A stretch of 59,792 nt of DNA from an uncultured Actinomycetes bacterium. GTDB lineage: Bacteria > Actinomycetota > Acidimicrobiia > Acidimicrobiales > SZUA-35. The stretch is from NCBI GenBank assembly GCA_902826025.1, contig CADEDH010000019.1, positions 1 to 59,792 of the forward strand, read 5' to 3'. A program made the position numbers and the translations under genes. Shown piece by piece: positions 41,585 to 54,250 of the stretch. The notes beneath the pieces were generated by a model. That model was not told where the DNA came from, ran no database searches, and saw only the letters and a list, made by a program, of their open reading frames with translations. The stretch's first letter is position 1; every line of letters begins with the position of its first letter.

Positions 41585-44059
41585 TCAACCCAGGGTGGTG
41601 AACGACATTACCTGACTGGCCGTGTGGCCCGAGGCGTCGGTCACCGTCACCGTGACCGTGTACGACGTGCCCGACCGCAGGCTGGGGGTGACGATACCGA
41701 GCAGCAGGGTGTGGGCCGTGGCGCACGACGAGCTGGGGACCTCCCGGGCCGCCTCGCCCACGGCGGCGTAGCTGAACACGGCGGTGACGCAGGAGCCGCT
41801 GGTGAGGCTGATCCGGGCCGAGGTGGCCCGGATGCGGGTGACGTCGGCCGCGTCGATCAGCGGCAGGGTCAGACCCTGGGGGGCAGCGGTGGTGCCCGTG
41901 CCCGGAGGTTTGGATGGGGGAGTGAGCGTGGGTAGCGAGGGCAGCAGCGTGGGCCGGGGGGTCGGCGGCGGCGCCGTGGTGCCTGATCGCCGGGTGGTGG
42001 CGGTGGTGGCCGTGGTGGCGGGGGCGGTGGTGGCCGGCGCCGTGGTGGCGGGGGCGGTGGTGGCGGGCGCCGACGGGGCCGGGCTGGCGGGGGCGGTGGT
42101 GGCGGGGGCGGCGGTGGTGGTGGTCCGCTTGGGTGTGGCCTTCGGCTTGGGGCGGGGCGCGGGAACGGTGGTGTTGGTGGCTGGGGGCTCCTGGAGCACC
42201 GGCGGCACCACTGTCGGGTTGGACGAGGCGTCTGAGCTGTCGATGAAGGTGGCGAACGTGGAGTCGGGAGCGACGTTGGACGGCGGCTTCAGGTCCCTGA
42301 CCAGGAGCCACACCACCACCCCAGCGATGACGGCCAGGCCCAGCACGGCCAGTAGCCCCCCGTAGGAGCGGCGCCGATTGAACCAGGCTCCCTGGACCGC
42401 CTCCCAGTGCCGCAGGAGCGGGTTCTCGGGCGGGACCGGCAGGGGCTGGCGTTCGAAGGCGGGGAACGGGATCTGATCGTCGATCGGAATCGGGCCGGCC
42501 AGGCCGTCGGATGGCGGGGGGGCCACGTCGGGTACTGCGACGGACTCGACCCCGTCGTCGAGCGGGCCGGGGCCGGCGGCGTCGTCGTCCGGGGCCAGCC
42601 AGGCCGACGGGCGCCGGGGCGGGGCCACAGCAGCGGGAACGGGGGCGGTGGTGGACGCCAGCAGAGCTACGGCGTCGAGCCGGGGGCCGATCGGGCTGCT
42701 GTCGGCGTCGCCGTTCCTGGTGCCGGCCGGCTCCGGCTCGAGCTCCACGATGGCGGCCTCGGGCGGATCGGCGGCCACGACGGTGGCAGCGGGATCGAAT
42801 GCGGCGGCCACGATGGTGGCGGCGGGATCGAAGGTGGGGGCGGCGGTGGTGGGCTCGGGGTCGAGATCCGGGGCCAGAGCAGAAGCCGGGACCTGACCGG
42901 TCGAGGGCGCGTCGGCCGACAGGGGGGCGATCCCGACCGGTGGGTGCTCGGCCACGGCCGTGCTTGAACCGCTGGAGGAGCGGCTGCCGGAACCGGGCGA
43001 GCCCAGGGAGCCGGGAGGGGCGGGCGGCCGGGGAACCGGCCGGTCAGGCGTCCAGCCGGAGTCGAGGCCCAGGGGGTCGTCTTCGGCACCCGGGGTGCTG
43101 GCGCCGTCGGTCAGATCGATGATCAGCTCGTCGGGCTCGGCTCCGACGGCGCGGGAGAAAGCGTCGTTGCCCGCGGTGGTGCTGGGGGAGGCGCCGTTCG
43201 AGCTGGGCCCGAGGCCCGGTTCGGCCGGGGCGGTTGATGGGCCGAGCAGACTGTCCCAGTCGATGGGATCGACGTCGGTCTCCGCTCCCGCCACCTCGGG
43301 CTCGGCCGCCAGGGCCAGCTCCAGGGCCCGGGCCAGGTGGTTGCACGTGCCGTACCGGTTGGCCGGGTTCTCGCTCAGCCCCTGGTCGATCACGTCGAGG
43401 ATCCGGGCCGGAGCCAGGCGGGCGACTTCGGCCATGAACTCCGGGGCCGGGCGACCCCGGTTGGGGGCCTGGCCGGCGATCAGGGCGGCCAGGGTGAGCG
43501 ACAGGCTGTAGACGTCGGCCGGCGGAGCCGGGGTCACGCCCCGCAGCGTCTCGGGGGCGCCGTAGCGGGGGCTTCCGTCGTCGAACCGCCGGGTGGCCAT
43601 GCCGTACAGCGAGATCAGGGGGGAGCTGGCGTCGGCCAGCACGATGCTCGAGGGCTTCAGATCGCCCAGCACCACGCCCAGGTCGTGGCCCCGTCCGACG
43701 ATGCGGGCGGCCTGCATCACCAACTCGGCTGCCCGGTGCCAGGGGGTGGGCCCGTGCGACAGCTGATCGGCCAGCGAGCCGATACGGAAGTACGGCATCA
43801 CGAGGTAGTTGGCGCCGTCGGGAGTGGATCCCACCTCGTACACCGGGACCACGCCCGGCTGCTCGGCGAACCGGTTGAGCGCCTTGCGCCGGATGTCGAA
43901 TCGGCGGGGTACCAGCGGTTCCTGGAGCGGATCGAGGATTTTTACTGCTACCTGGCGATTGTGGGTGCGTTGACGGCCGCGGAAGATGGCCGAACCCTCC
44001 ACATCCAGGGGCTCGACCTCGTCGATACCCCTAATCGCCAGATCGTCTGCTGTTGTCAT
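41585..44059 (-). CDS. membrane-bound Ser/Thr protein kinase homologue, probable pseudokinase
   Basis: 824-residue PknB-like protein. The kinase fold is at 1-265 with V-A-V-K (K40) kept. The catalytic loop reads V-L-G-D-L-K-P-S-S, so D133 and K135 remain, but His and Arg of HRD are lost and the metal-binding Asn is S138. The D-F-G metal loop is L151-Y-G153, lacking the essential aspartate. A-P-E (168-170) is kept. A long acidic Pro/Ala linker, one transmembrane helix (about 566-588), a Thr/Ala/Pro low-complexity stretch with A-P-A-T-T repeats and a fibronectin-like C-terminal domain follow. Phosphotransfer is unlikely; it may be a scaffold or allosteric partner. ATG 44059 has GAGG 6 bases upstream. 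Confidence 0.9.
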   Translation of the reverse strand: MTTADDLAIRGIDEVEPLDVEGSAIFRGRQRTHNRQVAVKILDPLQEPLVPRRFDIRRKALNRFAEQPGVVPVYEVGSTPDGANYLVMPYFRIGSLADQLSHGPTPWHRAAELVMQAARIVGRGHDLGVVLGDLKPSSIVLADASSPLISLYGMATRRFDDGSPRYGAPETLRGVTPAPPADVYSLSLTLAALIAGQAPNRGRPAPEFMAEVARLAPARILDVIDQGLSENPANRYGTCNHLARALELALAAEPEVAGAETDVDPIDWDSLLGPSTAPAEPGLGPSSNGASPSTTAGNDAFSRAVGAEPDELIIDLTDGASTPGAEDDPLGLDSGWTPDRPVPRPPAPPGSLGSPGSGSRSSSGSSTAVAEHPPVGIAPLSADAPSTGQVPASALAPDLDPEPTTAAPTFDPAATIVAAAFDPAATVVAADPPEAAIVELEPEPAGTRNGDADSSPIGPRLDAVALLASTTAPVPAAVAPPRRPSAWLAPDDDAAGPGPLDDGVESVAVPDVAPPPSDGLAGPIPIDDQIPFPAFERQPLPVPPENPLLRHWEAVQGAWFNRRRSYGGLLAVLGLAVIAGVVVWLLVRDLKPPSNVAPDSTFATFIDSSDASSNPTVVPPVLQEPPATNTTVPAPRPKPKATPKRTTTTAAPATTAPASPAPSAPATTAPATTAPATTAPATTATTATTRRSGTTAPPPTPRPTLLPSLPTLTPPSKPPGTGTTAAPQGLTLPLIDAADVTRIRATSARISLTSGSCVTAVFSYAAVGEAAREVPSSSCATAHTLLLGIVTPSLRSGTSYTVTVTVTDASGHTASQVMSFTTLG

Positions 44060-44232
44060 CCAATCCTCGCCCGTCAAGGCAACCGTCGCCCTGCCGGCCC
44101 CGCGGCGGCTCGCGGAGGTGTCGGCATCGTCGTGGAGGCCACGACCCGTCCTACGCTAGCCCAAAGGTGGCCCCCGCCGCGCCCGCTCCGGCGGTATCAC
44201 ATGATGTTCACATTACGGCTCCACCAGGAACA

Positions 44233-47546: not shown

Positions 47547-48770
47547 TTAGCGGTCTTTGAAGCCGAGCACGCCCTGGGCCTCGAGGTCGGCCACCTGATC
47601 GGCGCTGTAACCCAGCAGCTCGCTCAGCACCTCGGCGTTGTGCTGGCCCAGGTTCGAGGTGGGCAGGTCGAGGTCGCCGGGGGAGTCGGAGTACTTGATG
47701 GGGAATCCGGGGACGTGGAACGTGCCGGCCACCGGGTCGTGGATCTCCCGCACCGCGCCCCGCTCGGTGAAGTAGGGGTGGTTGACGGCGCCGGCCGGGC
47801 TAAGCACCGGACCGCACGGCACCCGGTGGGCGGTGAGGGCGGCCAGCACGTCGGCGTCGGTGTCGAAGCCGGCCATCCACTCCTCGACGATGGCCACCAG
47901 TTCGTCCCGGTTGGCCAGGCGCAGCTCGTTGGAGGCGAACCGCTCGTCCTTGGCCAGCTCGGGCCGGCCCAGAGCGGCCCACAGATTGTCGATCTGGTTG
48001 ACCGTGCACAGCAGCACGATCCAACCCTCGGGCCCCTGGAACGAGCCGGCGGGGGCGATCGGCTGGTAATGGCGGCCCTGGCGCATGGGCTCGAACTCGC
48101 CGTTGGTCAACGACGAGGCCTGCACCGCCTGCTCCTGGAAGTGGAACAGGGCGTCGACCATCGAGATGTCGATGTGGACGCCCCGCCCCGTCCGCTCCCG
48201 GTTGAACAGGGCGAAGCCGATGCCGGCGAAGGCGTGGACCCCGGCGTTGGTGTCTCCCATGCCGGCGCCAACGAACATGGGCGGCCCTTGGGGGTCTCCC
48301 GTCATGTGCATGATGCCGGAGTAGGCCTGGGCGATGAAGTCGAAGCTCGACTGGCTGGCGTAGGCACCTGTCTGCCCGAAGCCCGACACCGAGGCCATGA
48401 TCAGCTTGGGGTTCAGCGCCGACAGATCCTCGTAGCCGAGGCCACGCCGGGCCATGACGCCGGGGGTGAAGTTCTCCACCACGATGTCGACGTGGGGCAC
48501 GAGGCTGCGGACCAGGGCGATGCCCTCAGGCTGTGACAGGTCCACGCACAGGCTCCGCTTGCCCCGGTTCTGCTGGATGAACGAGCCCGACCGGCGGTTC
48601 TTCCGGGGCGACTGGGCCCGCATGGGGTCGCCGTGGGGCGGCTGCTCCACCTTGATCACGTCGGCCCCCAGCTCGGCCAGGAGCCGGGTGGAGGCCGGTC
48701 CGGCCAGGTACTGGGTGAAGTCGAGCACCCGGATGCCGTGCAGGTAGGGGGCGGGGGCAGGCGTGGTCAT
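47547..48770 (-). CDS. class III CoA-transferase (CaiB/BaiF family)
   Basis: 407-residue family III CoA-transferase moving CoA between carboxylic acids. It opens G-I-R-V-L-D-F-T-Q-Y-L-A-G-P and L-G-A-D-V-I-K-V-E-Q-P. The catalytic aspartate is D173 in G-A-G-M-G-D-T-N-A-G. R-G-V-H-I-D-I-S-M-V-D-A follows, then the small domain. Length is typical. ATG 48770 is used. A second CoA-handling enzyme, the acyl-CoA synthetase, is far away, so the substrate cannot be assigned. It diverges from the selenoprotein gene across 53 bp. Confidence 0.93.
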   Translation of the reverse strand: MTTPAPAPYLHGIRVLDFTQYLAGPASTRLLAELGADVIKVEQPPHGDPMRAQSPRKNRRSGSFIQQNRGKRSLCVDLSQPEGIALVRSLVPHVDIVVENFTPGVMARRGLGYEDLSALNPKLIMASVSGFGQTGAYASQSSFDFIAQAYSGIMHMTGDPQGPPMFVGAGMGDTNAGVHAFAGIGFALFNRERTGRGVHIDISMVDALFHFQEQAVQASSLTNGEFEPMRQGRHYQPIAPAGSFQGPEGWIVLLCTVNQIDNLWAALGRPELAKDERFASNELRLANRDELVAIVEEWMAGFDTDADVLAALTAHRVPCGPVLSPAGAVNHPYFTERGAVREIHDPVAGTFHVPGFPIKYSDSPGDLDLPTSNLGQHNAEVLSELLGYSADQVADLEAQGVLGFKDR

Positions 48771-48823
48771 GCCCCACGTCTACCGGATGCGCCGGGGTCC
48801 GTCCAGCGCGCTACCGTGCACGG

Positions 48824-49438
48824 ATGGATATCGAATTCTGGGTAGACCCCATATGACCATGGTGCTGGGTGACGGCCCGTTGGGTCGTCGATGAGGTTGC
48901 TCCCGCCCGGGACCTGAACATCACCTGGCAGCCGATCAGCCTGCTGGAGAAGAACCAGCCGGCGACCGACAGCGAGTACTACGCCCCGGTGGCCCGCAGC
49001 CACAAGCATCTGCGGGTCATGGAGTCGGTCCGAACCACCGACGGCAACGACGGTGTGTTCAAGCTCTACTGGGAGCTGGGCCGACGAAACCACCACGACC
49101 AGGACCGCACGTTCGACGTTGCCGACGCCCTGGCCGCGGTCGGGCTCGACACGTCCCACGCCGCCGCCTTCGACGAGGAGAGCTGGGACGCCGAGATCGC
49201 CAAGCGGATGGGGGTGGGCCTCGAGCTGGCCGGCACCGACATCGGCACCCCGATCATCGCCTTCGACAACGACGACGAGGAACGGGTGGCCCTGTTCGGC
49301 CCCGTCATCACGAGGGTTCCCACCACTGAGCAATCGCTCCGGCTGTGGGACGCCTTCATCGACATGGGCAAGATCCCCGGGTTCTGGGAAGTCAAGCGCA
49401 CCCGCACCGAACGGCCGGAGTTCGGCGAACGCCCGTAG
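48824..49438 (+). CDS. selenocysteine-containing DsbA-family oxidoreductase (Rv2466c-like, mycothiol-dependent reductase family)
   Basis: 204 residues if UGA 48854-48856 is read as selenocysteine at position 11. The frame opens M-D-I-E-F-W-V-D-P-I-U-P-W-C-W-V-T-A-R-W. In Rv2466c-type proteins this site is C-P-W-C, so UGA replaces exactly the nucleophilic cysteine. The helical insertion and ending G-P-V-I-T-R-V then V-K-R-T-R-T-E-R-P-E-F match that family to the C-terminus, so the gene is intact apart from UGA. A SECIS-like hairpin follows. Family members reduce substrates with mycothiol. A naive call would start at GTG 48869 and lose the active site. TACCGT lies 6 bases before ATG 48824 and there is no ribosome site, so the mRNA may be leaderless. 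Selenocysteine machinery genes are not in the window. Confidence 0.85.
48857..48889 (+). promoter_or_regulatory. bacterial SECIS-like element
   Basis: Directly after UGA 48854-48856. The stem is GACGGCCC (48871-48878) with GGGTCGTC (48882-48889), 8 pairs including one G-U, and the loop is GTT. The loop begins 22 bases past the UGA and has G first. Bacterial SECIS models call for a loop of 3-14 bases with a G in its first two positions, 16-37 bases from the UGA, so this hairpin fits. Confidence 0.75.
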
Positions 49439-49495
49439 GGCGTCGCCGAACCAGAACGCGCAGTGGCGAACGCCCGTAGGGCGTCGCCGAACCAG
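49421..49495. repeat. 41-bp direct repeat of a short-loop palindrome, two copies
   Basis: Copy 1 (49424-49454) and copy 2 (49465-49495) share about 31 identical bases. Each contains ACGCCC-GTA-GGGCGT; in copy 1 the stem extends to TTCGGCG/CGCCGAA with one bulged A. Copy 1 lies inside the selenoprotein gene's end: its GTA loop supplies the TAG stop codon. The layout resembles the 44.6-kb repeat. Confidence 0.85.
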
Positions 49496-49515
49496 CAGCA
49501 CGAGCTGAAAACGAA

Positions 49516-49546
49516 AGGAGGCGGGTGTCGGTGACACCCGCCTCCT
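49516..49546. terminator. bidirectional intrinsic terminator
   Basis: Perfect 14-bp stem AGGAGGCGGGTGTC (49516-49529) with GACACCCGCCTCCT (49533-49546), loop GGT. It lies between the convergent selenoprotein gene and the hypothetical gene. On the minus strand it is followed by a T-rich CGTTTTC; on the plus strand by TTGCGTTC. Confidence 0.7.
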
Positions 49547-49566
49547 TGCGTTCGGTACTCGGGCGG

Positions 49567-50310: not shown

Positions 50311-52125
50311 TTATGCCCCGGCCTCGGGTACCGTCACCGGCTCGGTGGCCGGGCTGTAGACCGAGGTGGCGGTGCCGGCCCCCGTGGCCCTGATCCGGTA
50401 GGTGTAGGTTTGGCCCGCCGCCGCCGAGGAATCGACCAGGCTCTTCTCGGTGCGGCCCTTCACGGTGAACTCGAACGTGACGCCGGTGGCCCGCGTGGTG
50501 CGCACCACTGTGTACCCCGTGACGCCGGCCGCCGTCGACGGTGTCCACGACAACTCCACCTCGGTCTTGTTGGCCGCCAGGGCCGCCGTCACGTCGGTAG
50601 GCGGGTCCAGGGGCGCCGTGGTGCCGCTCGTCGGTGTCGAGGTGGGTGGGGTGGTGGCCGACGAGGCGGTGGTGGAGCGGGTGGTGGTGGTGCCGCTGGT
50701 GGGCGAGGTGGGCGAGCTGGGGACGCTGGAGGGAGAGGTCGGAGGGGTCGTGGCCGAGGTCGCAGTGCTGGAGGCCGAGGGGTCGATCGACGACGTGGGG
50801 TCTGACGCCGCCGGGGCGGTGGTGTCAGACGGGGCGGGGGTGACGAGCGACAGATCCCGTGCCGTGGTGTCGGTGGTGGGGCCGGCTACCGCCGAGCCGT
50901 CGGGGGCGCCGGCCTGGGCGCCGTCGCTGATCGACGTGGCCACACCGCCGGCCAGGCTGGGGGCGGTGGGTGTCGGGTCGTTGCCGCTGCCCCCTCCCAT
51001 GAGGGTCACCACGGTGATCAGGGCCACGATCAGCAGGATCAGGCCGCCCGCGGCCAGGACGGCCACGGTGCCCCGGGACGGCGTCGGATCGTCGTAGAGG
51101 TTGGGATCGACCGGTACGAACGGCGGCGGAACAGGGTCGTGGAACAGCCGCCCGCTGGCGGGCCGGGACGGGGCGACGGCGTGCCGGTTCACCGTGGTCT
51201 GGTTCACCGTGTTCTGGGCCACGGTCGGGGCCGAGGTCGGGGCCGACTGCTCCAAGCGGGTGCGACCGCTACCGGGTGGCGGGTAGGAATGGCCCCGCTG
51301 GTGGCGGGCCTCGTCGGCGGCCTCCGCGAGGGCCTGGGCGAAGGTGCCGGCGGTGGGATATCGGCCCTCGGGCTGTTTGGCCATGGCCCGTTCGATCACG
51401 GCGCACACGGCGTCGGGGGCTCGGTCGCGCAGGTCGGGGACCGGTTGGTGCACCACCCGGCCCACAACGGCCATGAGGGCGTTGTCGCCGTTCAGGTCAC
51501 GGAAGGGGGGCCGCCCGGCGATGAGCGCCCACAGGGTGGCGCCGAGGCCGTACACGTCGGACGCGGGTGACGTCATGTCGCCCAGAAGAGCTTCGGGGGC
51601 GCTGAAGGTGGGGGTGAAGGCGGCGCCGGTGGTCTTGGAACCCCCCTGCTCCAGAAGCTTGGCGATGCCGAAGTCGGCGATGCGGGGCGATCCGTTCGAG
51701 GAGAGCAGGATGTTTGCCGGCTTGAGGTCGAGGTGCACCACCCCGCTGCGGTGGGCGGCGGCCATGGTGTTGGCCACGGCCACCATGTAGTCGACGGCCT
51801 CCGGCCAGGGCACGGGACCGGACTCGAGGCGGTCCTGGAGCGAGCCCTGGACGTAGTACGGCATCAGCAGGTACGGCTCGCCGTTGTCGGTGAGTCCGGT
51901 GCTGTAGACGGGGACGATGCCCTCGTTCTCCGAGAGTCGGCCCATGGCCCGGCGCTCCCGGTCGAAGCGGCGCACCACGTCGGCGTCGTCGCTGGCGTTG
52001 AGGACCTTCAGCGCGACCATCCGGTCGAAGTCGACCTGCCGGGCGCGGTACACCCGGGATGATCCCCCTCGCCCTATCAGCTCGATCTGGTCGAGCCCGT
52101 CTATCCCGAGTTTCAGTGTCTCCAC
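50311..52125 (-). CDS. membrane Ser/Thr protein kinase (PknB-like), fibronectin-type extracellular domain
   Basis: 604-residue Hanks-type kinase. Glycine loop I-G-R-G-G-S-S-R-V (about 17-25), V-A-L-K with K40, catalytic loop H131-L-D133-L-K-P-A-N138, D151-F-G153 and A-P-E all present, so it should be active; R of HRD is replaced by L. A juxtamembrane Pro/Ser linker leads to one transmembrane helix at about 350-372. The extracellular part is Thr/Ser/Pro-rich to about 510, then a fibronectin type III domain (about 515-600). GTG 52125 starts the frame. It is paralogous to the pseudokinase at 41.6 kb, and the catalytic positions have the same numbers in both. Confidence 0.94.
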   Translation of the reverse strand: METLKLGIDGLDQIELIGRGGSSRVYRARQVDFDRMVALKVLNASDDADVVRRFDRERRAMGRLSENEGIVPVYSTGLTDNGEPYLLMPYYVQGSLQDRLESGPVPWPEAVDYMVAVANTMAAAHRSGVVHLDLKPANILLSSNGSPRIADFGIAKLLEQGGSKTTGAAFTPTFSAPEALLGDMTSPASDVYGLGATLWALIAGRPPFRDLNGDNALMAVVGRVVHQPVPDLRDRAPDAVCAVIERAMAKQPEGRYPTAGTFAQALAEAADEARHQRGHSYPPPGSGRTRLEQSAPTSAPTVAQNTVNQTTVNRHAVAPSRPASGRLFHDPVPPPFVPVDPNLYDDPTPSRGTVAVLAAGGLILLIVALITVVTLMGGGSGNDPTPTAPSLAGGVATSISDGAQAGAPDGSAVAGPTTDTTARDLSLVTPAPSDTTAPAASDPTSSIDPSASSTATSATTPPTSPSSVPSSPTSPTSGTTTTRSTTASSATTPPTSTPTSGTTAPLDPPTDVTAALAANKTEVELSWTPSTAAGVTGYTVVRTTRATGVTFEFTVKGRTEKSLVDSSAAAGQTYTYRIRATGAGTATSVYSPATEPVTVPEAGA

Positions 52126-52261: not shown

Positions 52262-54250
52262 TCAGGAGTTCTCGGCGATGGTCTGCTCGAGCCACGGAGC
52301 GAAGGCCGTCGACGAGATGTTCCGCCCGGCGTTGGCCTCGTCCTGAGGGCCGGCGAACACCACCGCTATCACCTCGTCGTTGTGGAAAACGGGGCTGCCC
52401 GAGGCGCCCTGGCCGCTGGCGAAGGTGGTTATCACCACGGCGTTGGCGATGTCGCCGTCGGGCGAGCAACCGACGCCGGGGGGCGAGCCTTCGGGGATGA
52501 AGCTGGCCTGGTCGGGGTTGGAGCAGCCGGGCCAGATGGCCCAGCTGGCCGCCTCGCCCCGGGTGGCACTGACCGGAGGCAGCCGCAGCTCGCCCATGTC
52601 GTCGAGGCTGATCACGGCGAACTCGGCCGGGAAGCCGGTGTTGAACACCGGATCGCCCAGGGTGAGGGTGTTGGAATCGCCCAGCTTCACGGGGGGCAGG
52701 CCAACCGAGCCGACCGCGCCGCCCGTGGCGTCGCCCGTGATCTGAAGGACAGCGATGTCGAGGAATGGGTGGAGGGCCACCGTCTTCGCCTCGTACTCGA
52801 TCTGGGCCGGCTTGTCGACGTCTCTCGACACCGCCACCAGGAGTGTGGGGGCGAGTGCGGCCACATGTTGGTTCGTGACGATGAGCTTGTCGCTCACGAA
52901 GAACCCGGAGCCGAGGCCCTGGTCGGCCAGCAGCATCACGGTGGATTGTTTGGCCTGCGCCAACACGGCTGCTGCGTCGGTGCCGGGGGCGGCGGTGGCC
53001 ACCGGGCCGGTTCCGAACGTGTTGTCGCCAGCGGCCAACGGTTGGCCGCTGTCCCTGTTCTGCAGTGCCAGGGCCAGAGCGCCGATCGCCACTGCGGCCA
53101 GCACCCCGATGGCGATGAGCAGCGGCAGGTTGCGCTGGCGGCGCACCCGGTGCTCACCGGCGGTGATGATGCGCAGGGCAACGCCGGCGTCGTCGTCGCC
53201 CAACTGGGCCAGGAAGGCGCCGTCGGCGCGGGTGGGCCCGGTGATCCTGCGGCCGTCGACGTAGGTGCCCTTCGTCGAGGTGTCCTGGAGCCACCAGGCC
53301 CCGTCGTGGTGGGTGATCGTGAGGTGACGGCGCGACACCAGCGAGTGCCGCTCGTCGACCGTGACCAGGCAACTCGGGTCCCGGCCGACGGTGATCTCGG
53401 TGCCGGGCAGGAAGGTGAAGTCGCGGTCGTCGATCGACAGCGAGATCGTCGCCTCGCCCACCTGCGTGGTGGAGGCGAGGTGGTGTACGGAGGTGGGGGC
53501 CGGCGACCAGCCGTGGCCGTCGTCACCGCCGTCCCAGGCGGGGGTGGGGGGTGAGGCGGGGGCGCCGTTGCGCCCGAGGTCGGGCTCGTCCCAGGCGGGA
53601 GCGGCGTAGGGCCCCGGTGGTGGTGCGGCGTCGAAGGCCGAGGGTGGTGCGGGTGGTGGTGCGGCGTCGAATCCGGCGGGTGGTGCCGGTGGTGGTGCGG
53701 CGTCGAATCCGGCGGGAGGGGCCGGCGGAGGAGGTGGGGGAGCGCCGAAGCTCATCGGGGCCGGCGAGGGAGCGCCCAGCAGTGAGGGCGCCGGCATGGG
53801 ATCGGGCGCGAGGATCGGGGTCGAGCGGACGCCTCCCGCTGCCGCTGTGCCGGGAACGGCGAAGTCTTCCAAGCTCGGTGGCCGGGGCGGCACCTCCACC
53901 TCCACCAGGGGCGCCGGAGCGATCAGGGGATCGTGGATGCCCGGGGGCGGCGTGGTCTGCAGCTCGATCCGCAGCTCCACCCCTTCCACCCCTCCGAGGC
54001 GTACCGTGGTGTCGGTGCCGACCGTCCAGGTGGGGGCGAGTCGAACGCCGATCGGGTCGAACGAGCCGTGCGTCGATGAGTCGGCCGCCGTCCACGCCGT
54101 CCCGTTCCACACGAACTCGATGTGCCGTCGCGACACCGAGGGGTCGGTGAGAACCACCGCCGCGTCGGGTGACCGGCCCACCGTCACCGGTGAGTTGTCG
54201 GGGGCGAACCGGGCTTGCCCTCCCGGCCACGTGATTTCCAGGTCGTGCAT
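52262..54250 (-). CDS. membrane protein with two FHA domains and a trypsin-like serine protease domain
   Basis: 662 residues. FHA 1 (about 1-100): G25-R26 and S40-R-R-H43. A Pro/Ala linker carries three 12-residue repeats (F-D-A-A-P-P-P-A-P-P). FHA 2 (about 260-365): V-G-R-D-P then S-R-R-H. A transmembrane helix at about 375-400 (P-L-L-I-A-I-G-V-L-A-A-V) leads to an extracytoplasmic protease with H462 (T-N-Q-H-V-A), D498 (L-D-I-A-V-L) and S617 (G-A-S-G-S-P), a full triad as in HtrA/trypsin-like enzymes. It probably binds phosphothreonine inside the cell and couples this to proteolysis outside. It lies next to the active kinase on the same strand. ATG 54250 starts M-H-D-L-E-I-T-W. Confidence 0.9.
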   Translation of the reverse strand: MHDLEITWPGGQARFAPDNSPVTVGRSPDAAVVLTDPSVSRRHIEFVWNGTAWTAADSSTHGSFDPIGVRLAPTWTVGTDTTVRLGGVEGVELRIELQTTPPPGIHDPLIAPAPLVEVEVPPRPPSLEDFAVPGTAAAGGVRSTPILAPDPMPAPSLLGAPSPAPMSFGAPPPPPPAPPAGFDAAPPPAPPAGFDAAPPPAPPSAFDAAPPPGPYAAPAWDEPDLGRNGAPASPPTPAWDGGDDGHGWSPAPTSVHHLASTTQVGEATISLSIDDRDFTFLPGTEITVGRDPSCLVTVDERHSLVSRRHLTITHHDGAWWLQDTSTKGTYVDGRRITGPTRADGAFLAQLGDDDAGVALRIITAGEHRVRRQRNLPLLIAIGVLAAVAIGALALALQNRDSGQPLAAGDNTFGTGPVATAAPGTDAAAVLAQAKQSTVMLLADQGLGSGFFVSDKLIVTNQHVAALAPTLLVAVSRDVDKPAQIEYEAKTVALHPFLDIAVLQITGDATGGAVGSVGLPPVKLGDSNTLTLGDPVFNTGFPAEFAVISLDDMGELRLPPVSATRGEAASWAIWPGCSNPDQASFIPEGSPPGVGCSPDGDIANAVVITTFASGQGASGSPVFHNDEVIAVVFAGPQDEANAGRNISSTAFAPWLEQTIAENS
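53616..53723. repeat. 36-bp in-frame tandem repeat, three copies
   Basis: A 36-base unit, anchored by GGTGCGGCGTCGAA, recurs at 53622, 53658 and 53694 within the FHA-protease gene. It encodes the 12-residue F-D-A-A-P-P-P-A-P-P-A-G linker repeat. Copy number may vary between strains. Confidence 0.85.

Follow-up and report, generated by a model that had tools for sequence, protein, structure and literature searches.

A predicted selenocysteine-containing Rv2466c-like reductase with a putative in-frame SECIS element in an uncultured member of the Acidimicrobiia

The window, that is the whole stretch of DNA analysed (59,792 nucleotides of contig CADEDH010000019.1), carries a gene at 48824-49438 that forms a single frame up to its terminal stop, with TGA at 48854-48856 as the sole inner stop codon. 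Translation across the UGA reads MDIEFWVDPI-U-PWCWVTARWVV..., which agrees with the claim of the first-pass annotation that one in-frame UGA joins the two halves of an intact frame. The features of the locus, with the evidence on which each is placed, are as follows.

48824..49438, + strand: predicted selenoprotein gene, Rv2466c-like (PF22234) DsbA-superfamily reductase, 204 residues plus stop (translation, Pfam and fold)
48854..48856, + strand: in-frame UGA, predicted Sec11, equivalent to the first Cys of CPWC (aligns without a gap to position 19 of the 4zil chain)
48863..48865, + strand: codon of Cys14, predicted resolving residue of U-P-W-C (Cys14 in 66 of 66 compared sequences)
48869..48871, + strand: GTG picked as the start by a standard ORF call, here codon 16 (Val) (ORF listing and codon comparison)
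48871..48889, + strand: predicted bacterial SECIS hairpin, stem 48871-48877 with 48883-48889, loop 48878-48882

An exact 31-base direct repeat is present at 49424-49454 and 49465-49495, its first copy spanning the stop codon of the gene, and a 20-base inverted repeat with a 3-base gap, terminator-like in shape, lies downstream of the gene (49510-49552). Judged by eye from their translations, the minus-strand ORFs 41585-44077, 50311-52125 and 52262-54250 comprise two Ser/Thr-kinase-like proteins and one FHA/trypsin-like protein.

The protein matches the Rv2466c-like Pfam family PF22234 (E 2.2e-38, 132.7 bits, cut-off 27) with residues 10-192 over positions 1-180 of the 180-position profile, while the match to PF01323 is far weaker (3.5e-7); the NCBIfam search of the protein returned only TIGR00411 (E 0.0042, 17 bits), far below its cut-off of 92.75. 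The solved sequences that it matches (4zil, 4nxi, 5xur and 4wkw) are by their titles three Rv2466c entries and one Mycobacterium leprae protein. The predicted fold, with Sec modelled as Cys, has a pLDDT of 93.5 and finds its best PDB matches in Rv2466c entries (TM 0.77-0.83), whereas the chain titled FrnE (5xwh) reaches a TM of 0.54. Both the PF22234 match and the Cys-containing relatives bear out the earlier placing of the UGA exactly on the first Cys of the CPWC motif.

The UGA codon is conserved. In a scan of public genomes with six peptide patterns, none of which spans the UGA codon and which are biased toward near relatives, TGA occupied the Sec11 codon in 35 of 35 loci, whose titles name Acidimicrobi..., Actinomycetota, one Ferrithrix and one plain "bacterium". 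Within the class of the window's genome, 186 of 395 genomes match the protein at E 1e-20; among the matches listed, 44 genomes hold the UPWC form, and the codon was read as TGA in all 44. Ten genes are common to the two sets, leaving 69 distinct genes (the window's own included), and among the matches listed every one of these has TGA at this codon and no second inner stop. The nearest stop-free relatives carry TGC or TGT in the same column, and all 47 stop-free rows encode Cys there (37 TGC, 10 TGT), in a count whose script required the motif with either Cys or a stop at the column, a motif that is present in all class rows read. A phylum-wide draw of 396 genomes gave 63 matches at E 1e-30, other classes accounting for 40; when every stop-flagged row among the matches listed was read, TGA in the motif was confined to three genomes from the class of the window, G000, G075 and G002. 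Several lower-scoring rows were also flagged for a stop (L086-L088, L090, L091, L094, L124, L125, L128 and L176-L180), but this lies C-terminally, outside the motif, and these were rejected as Sec candidates; in L089 and L093 the stop is absent from the aligned part.

The exchange between U and C, which the first-pass annotation had suggested looking for among homologues, is thus found at exactly this column, and the random decay that it had named as contrary evidence is not what the relatives display, as they keep both the UGA and the intact frame. A pseudogene, or a sequencing error at the UGA, would be a negligible explanation: decay can leave a lone stop in an otherwise good frame, but the identical codon recurs in the 69 distinct genes listed, across many assemblies, and the purifying selection, the covarying stem and the association with selA described below all speak against it.

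The standard ORF listing starts the gene at GTG 48869, yielding 189 amino acids from which the CPWC motif is lost. Many relatives in the protein databases are likewise 189 amino acids long, some under the name "disulfide bond formation protein DsbA", and the three that were retrieved (P0001, P0010 and P0015) all begin with MTARWVV; the earlier statement that a call at this GTG removes the catalytic centre holds both for the listing and for these three deposited proteins. If the GTG were the true start, the UGA would merely close an upstream frame and the product would be a 189-residue protein without the motif. The codon comparison of the window's gene, taken as the reference, with 65 others points elsewhere. 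Upstream of the TGA (codons 2-10) there are 252 synonymous and 125 non-synonymous differences (pN/pS 0.11), between the TGA and the GTG (codons 12-15) 79 synonymous and no non-synonymous differences, and in codons 23-40 519 and 430, respectively (pN/pS 0.28); in these figures a difference inherited by several genes counts once per gene, and L080 and L141 (aligned from codon 2) and L052 (a 69-nt piece at the end of a contig) are omitted. The synonymous bias on both sides of the UGA indicates coding selection in the same frame, which is evidence against the GTG start as well as against decay. In the predicted fold, initiation at the GTG would moreover remove strand 1 together with the active site, and the Cys relatives start at the same upstream place. 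In spite of its use by the ORF listing and in many deposited proteins, we consider the GTG start very improbable.

Bacterial SECIS elements are stem-loops that directly follow the UGA and have a G in the loop. The predicted hairpin occupies positions 18 to 36, counting the U of the UGA as 1, and consists of a 7-pair stem and a 5-base loop, with 14 nt between the UGA and the stem and 21 nt between the UGA and the loop. All seven pairs form in 69 of the 69 distinct UGA genes among the matches listed (a count that includes L052, which is not in the hairpin alignments) and in one of the 47 Cys rows, the other 46 pairing 0-6 of 7. They also form in each of the 52 distinct rows of the covariation alignment. 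Most stem pairs are fixed by conserved amino acids; the column pair 21/33, however, comprises the silent third positions of Thr17 and Val21, and it varies as G-C (44), A-U (4), U-A (3) and C-G (1) in the 52 rows, and as G-C (59), A-U (4), U-A (3), G-U (2) and C-G (1) in the 69 genes among the matches listed. The type of this pair requires at the fewest 6 changes when mapped onto a tree built from 63 Sec genes. In L144 a change of Val21 to Ala turns the G-U pair 22/32 into G-C. Val16 is encoded by GTG in 62 of 62 rows, compared with a share of 42.5% for GTG among Val codons downstream of the stem, and the G at loop position 2 is invariant in 55 aligned rows.

None of 500 shuffles, in a test that included an eighth, optional pair (25/29), reached the covariation score, the share of paired cells or the number of double-changed cells. 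The other two of the five measures, the number of pairs with a double change (reached in 244 of 500) and of further pair types (49 of 500), are unremarkable because pair 21/33 alone is double-changed. Stems slid along the alignment have 16-60% of their cells paired, against 98% for the predicted stem. Folding of the single window sequence gave an unremarkable stability (z -0.83 for a stretch of 60 nt, -1.28 for one of 42 nt), and an Rfam scan of 48700-49000 found no family up to E 10. By inference, SelB would bind the stem and deliver the Sec-tRNA. Loop guanosines are named for a predicted SECIS element in the Figure 3 legend of PMC1088965.

The first-pass annotation had proposed a search for the selenocysteine machinery, and tRNA-Sec, selA, selB and selD are all in the genome, each above its cut-off. 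The tRNA-Sec scores 65.6 bits (cut-off 47) and is called by ARAGORN as tRNA-SeC with the anticodon tca; 12 further, weaker matches fall below the cut-off, one of which (L002) is a tRNA-Ser. The selB gene (270 bits, cut-off 242) adjoins selA (401 bits, cut-off 268), and selD reaches 371 bits (cut-off 125). Among 14 control genomes, 5 were above the cut-off for tRNA-Sec, 2 for selB, 1 for selA and 2 for selD. The selD gene (L103:1501-2418) has itself an in-frame TGA, within SHGAG-U-GCK, and is likely to encode a second selenoprotein; Sec in the SelD loop is known (UxxK, Table 1 of PMC13188914). Across the class, a selA search at E 1e-30 hit 42 of the 44 genomes with the UGA form among the matches listed and 218 of 351 others (Fisher 2e-6, from lists matched by hand; as the genomes are related, the value is not a strict probability). 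No selA was found, also at E 0.001, in two UGA-form genomes, G292 (96% complete) and G345 (68% complete).

If suppression or an altered genetic code led to the UGA being read as Trp or some other standard amino acid, the frame would likewise stay open, but this reading has very little to recommend it when all 47 stop-free rows carry Cys at the column, the genome contains a tRNA-Sec set, selD is a further gene with UGA at a known Sec site, and the positions directly after the UGA covary as a stem. We propose that the gene encodes an Rv2466c-like protein in which the UGA at codon 11 is decoded as Sec by the organism's own SelA, SelB, SelD and tRNA-Sec together with the predicted hairpin, a reading to which we assign a probability of roughly 0.93. 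What derives from sequence in this proposal is the UGA and its conservation, the exchange with Cys in relatives, the machinery genes and the covarying stem positions. The gene is thus very probably that of a selenoprotein with an in-frame SECIS element; the Sec reading of the first-pass annotation is supported by the machinery, the U/C exchange and the conserved UGA, to which the covarying predicted hairpin adds a further line of evidence.

A tree of 96 proteins (64 with Sec, 32 with Cys), built by a quick method, requires no fewer than 11 Sec/Cys changes, whereas the branches starred in it alone force 3. The tree has 35 open forks and does not give the direction of change; it omits identical proteins, truncated genes and, five outgroups apart, all rows that score under 440, and it includes ten added Cys proteins from the databases. 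The Cys rows are scattered within the UPWC part of the tree, which fits repeated exchange of Sec for Cys. One Cys form with a CPFC motif, L098 (genome G027), retains 7 of 7 SECIS stem pairs and is apparently a Cys copy with a stem left over after such an exchange. The 204-residue Cys protein P0002 is, by eye, of the CPFC type in its first ~60 residues and nearly identical to the window's protein in the rest; it stems from a contig of 636 bases and is thus either recombinant or chimeric.

The genome of the window (at L085) and those of many relatives also encode a paralog with CPWA or CPFA, in which only the first Cys of the motif is present. Within f2, a family of the class, the G366 paralog finds a match at E 1e-30 in 168 of 200 genomes, and among the matches listed seven paralogs are flagged for TGA, all seven having it at the motif Cys in frames that are otherwise open. 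These are found in G366 (UPFA) and in G410, G497, G475, G430, G486 and G254 (UPWA), at loci L155, L163 and L181-L185, and selA is above the cut-off in all seven genomes. The corresponding stem forms 6 of 7 pairs with a U-U mismatch; since the Cys forms L157 and L170 likewise form 6 of 7, the hairpin is weak evidence in the one-Cys paralogs. The UGA paralogs are likely to represent a second Sec lineage with the motif UxxA. We judge the odds to be about even that Sec entered this mycothiol-type reductase family at least twice in the Acidimicrobiia, once as UPWC and once as UPWA/UPFA, a monoselenol reductase without a resolving Cys, and that the UPWC line returned several times to Cys, with one copy still carrying the old stem.

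The function can be proposed by homology with NCgl2478 of Corynebacterium glutamicum, which has a Cys-Pro-Phe-Cys motif, uses the first Cys (pKa under 6) as the nucleophile and the second to resolve, and prefers mycothiol with mycothione reductase as its electron source, according to the parts of PMC8280269 drawn on here. NCgl2478 is likened by function, PF22234 membership having been established for the window's protein alone. By this homology, the attack on mixed disulfides or disulfides would be made by Sec11 as the nucleophile and the intermediate resolved by Cys14, and recycling of the enzyme would fall to a low-molecular-weight thiol, probably mycothiol, as reported for NCgl2478. Mycothiol-linked reduction is accordingly a function suggested by the relatives. 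Mycothiol itself is likely to be present in the organism, albeit the best MshC match in the genome (412 bits) is under the cut-off of 485; the same protein scores 335 bits for cysS (cut-off 340).

Even with Sec correctly assigned, the electrons might come from a donor other than mycothiol, for instance an FrhB-like F420/iron-sulfur protein. Of 70 UGA loci (among them the UPFA paralog L092), 19 have an FrhB-like gene (PF04432/PF04422) upstream in the same orientation, at a distance of 3-138 bases (640 in L029), as against none of 31 Cys loci, and the mshC match below cut-off points in the same direction. The loci concerned are L022, L023, L026-L032, L036, L037, L040, L041, L069, L071, L073, L075, L076 and L080. 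All 19, however, fall within one 24-row branch of the tree (support 87), so that a single inherited gene order could account for them. The FrhB gene is also far more conserved than its neighbour (the other 18 copies reach 84-94% against the L023 copy), the window's genome has its FrhB-like gene on another contig, and the upstream flanks of the Cys loci span only 619-1500 bases. We regard another donor as the less likely possibility, though one of some weight, and mycothiol as the probable donor.

If the Sec reading is right, a clade-wide selenoenzyme has been deposited headless because the gene calls begin after the UGA, and re-annotation would add a selenoprotein subfamily present in many Acidimicrobiia. 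The selA and selB genes of these genomes would gain a client, selenium would be tied to a family of reductases known from actinobacteria that use mycothiol, and the close relatives would supply natural Sec/Cys pairs for comparing both forms.

The first-pass annotation had not known of this family as Sec-containing. The broad class is in print: UxxC DsbA-like selenoproteins have been described since 2005, when nine such sequences assigned to COG2761, with a predicted SECIS (Figure 3 legend), were reported from the Sargasso Sea (PMC1088965). The GOS survey of 2008 gives 63 sequences of DsbA 1, 18 of DsbA 2 and 5 of DsbA 3 with UxxV (PMC2398784), and the counts in other reports are 45 UxxC proteins in 41 organisms (PMC5029168), four DsbA-like selenoproteins (PMC1794560) and two in Asgard archaea (PMC11227280). 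Table 1 of PMC13188914 contains a "DsbA-like protein form 1" (UxxC) and has no Rv2466c or mycothiol entry. In the open-licence literature we found no paper that pairs Rv2466c with selenocysteine, and none that combines selenoprotein, Acidimicrobi and selenocysteine. The kind is thus known, while the Rv2466c-type subfamily, to which some older metagenomic DsbA entries may belong, was not found in print in that literature and looks undescribed; the earlier remark stands for the subfamily and not for the broad class.

With the DsbA-like UxxC selenoproteins the window's protein shares the DsbA superfamily and the replacement of the first Cys of CxxC by Sec, but those are filed under COG2761 or PF01323, whereas it fits PF22234 far better; published sequences such as NIP15863.1 and AACY01178397 may nevertheless fall within its clade. 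The GOS group DsbA 3, as far as its description in PMC2398784 goes, resembles the UPWA/UPFA paralogs in having a Sec motif without a second Cys, and differs from them in its last motif residue, which is Val and not Ala. The closest known system is the Rv2466c-like family PF22234 itself, with which the protein has in common the sequence family, the fold, the place of the C/U-P-W-C motif and the retained second Cys; it differs in that its first Cys position is encoded by UGA, the catalytic data considered here concerning Cys forms.
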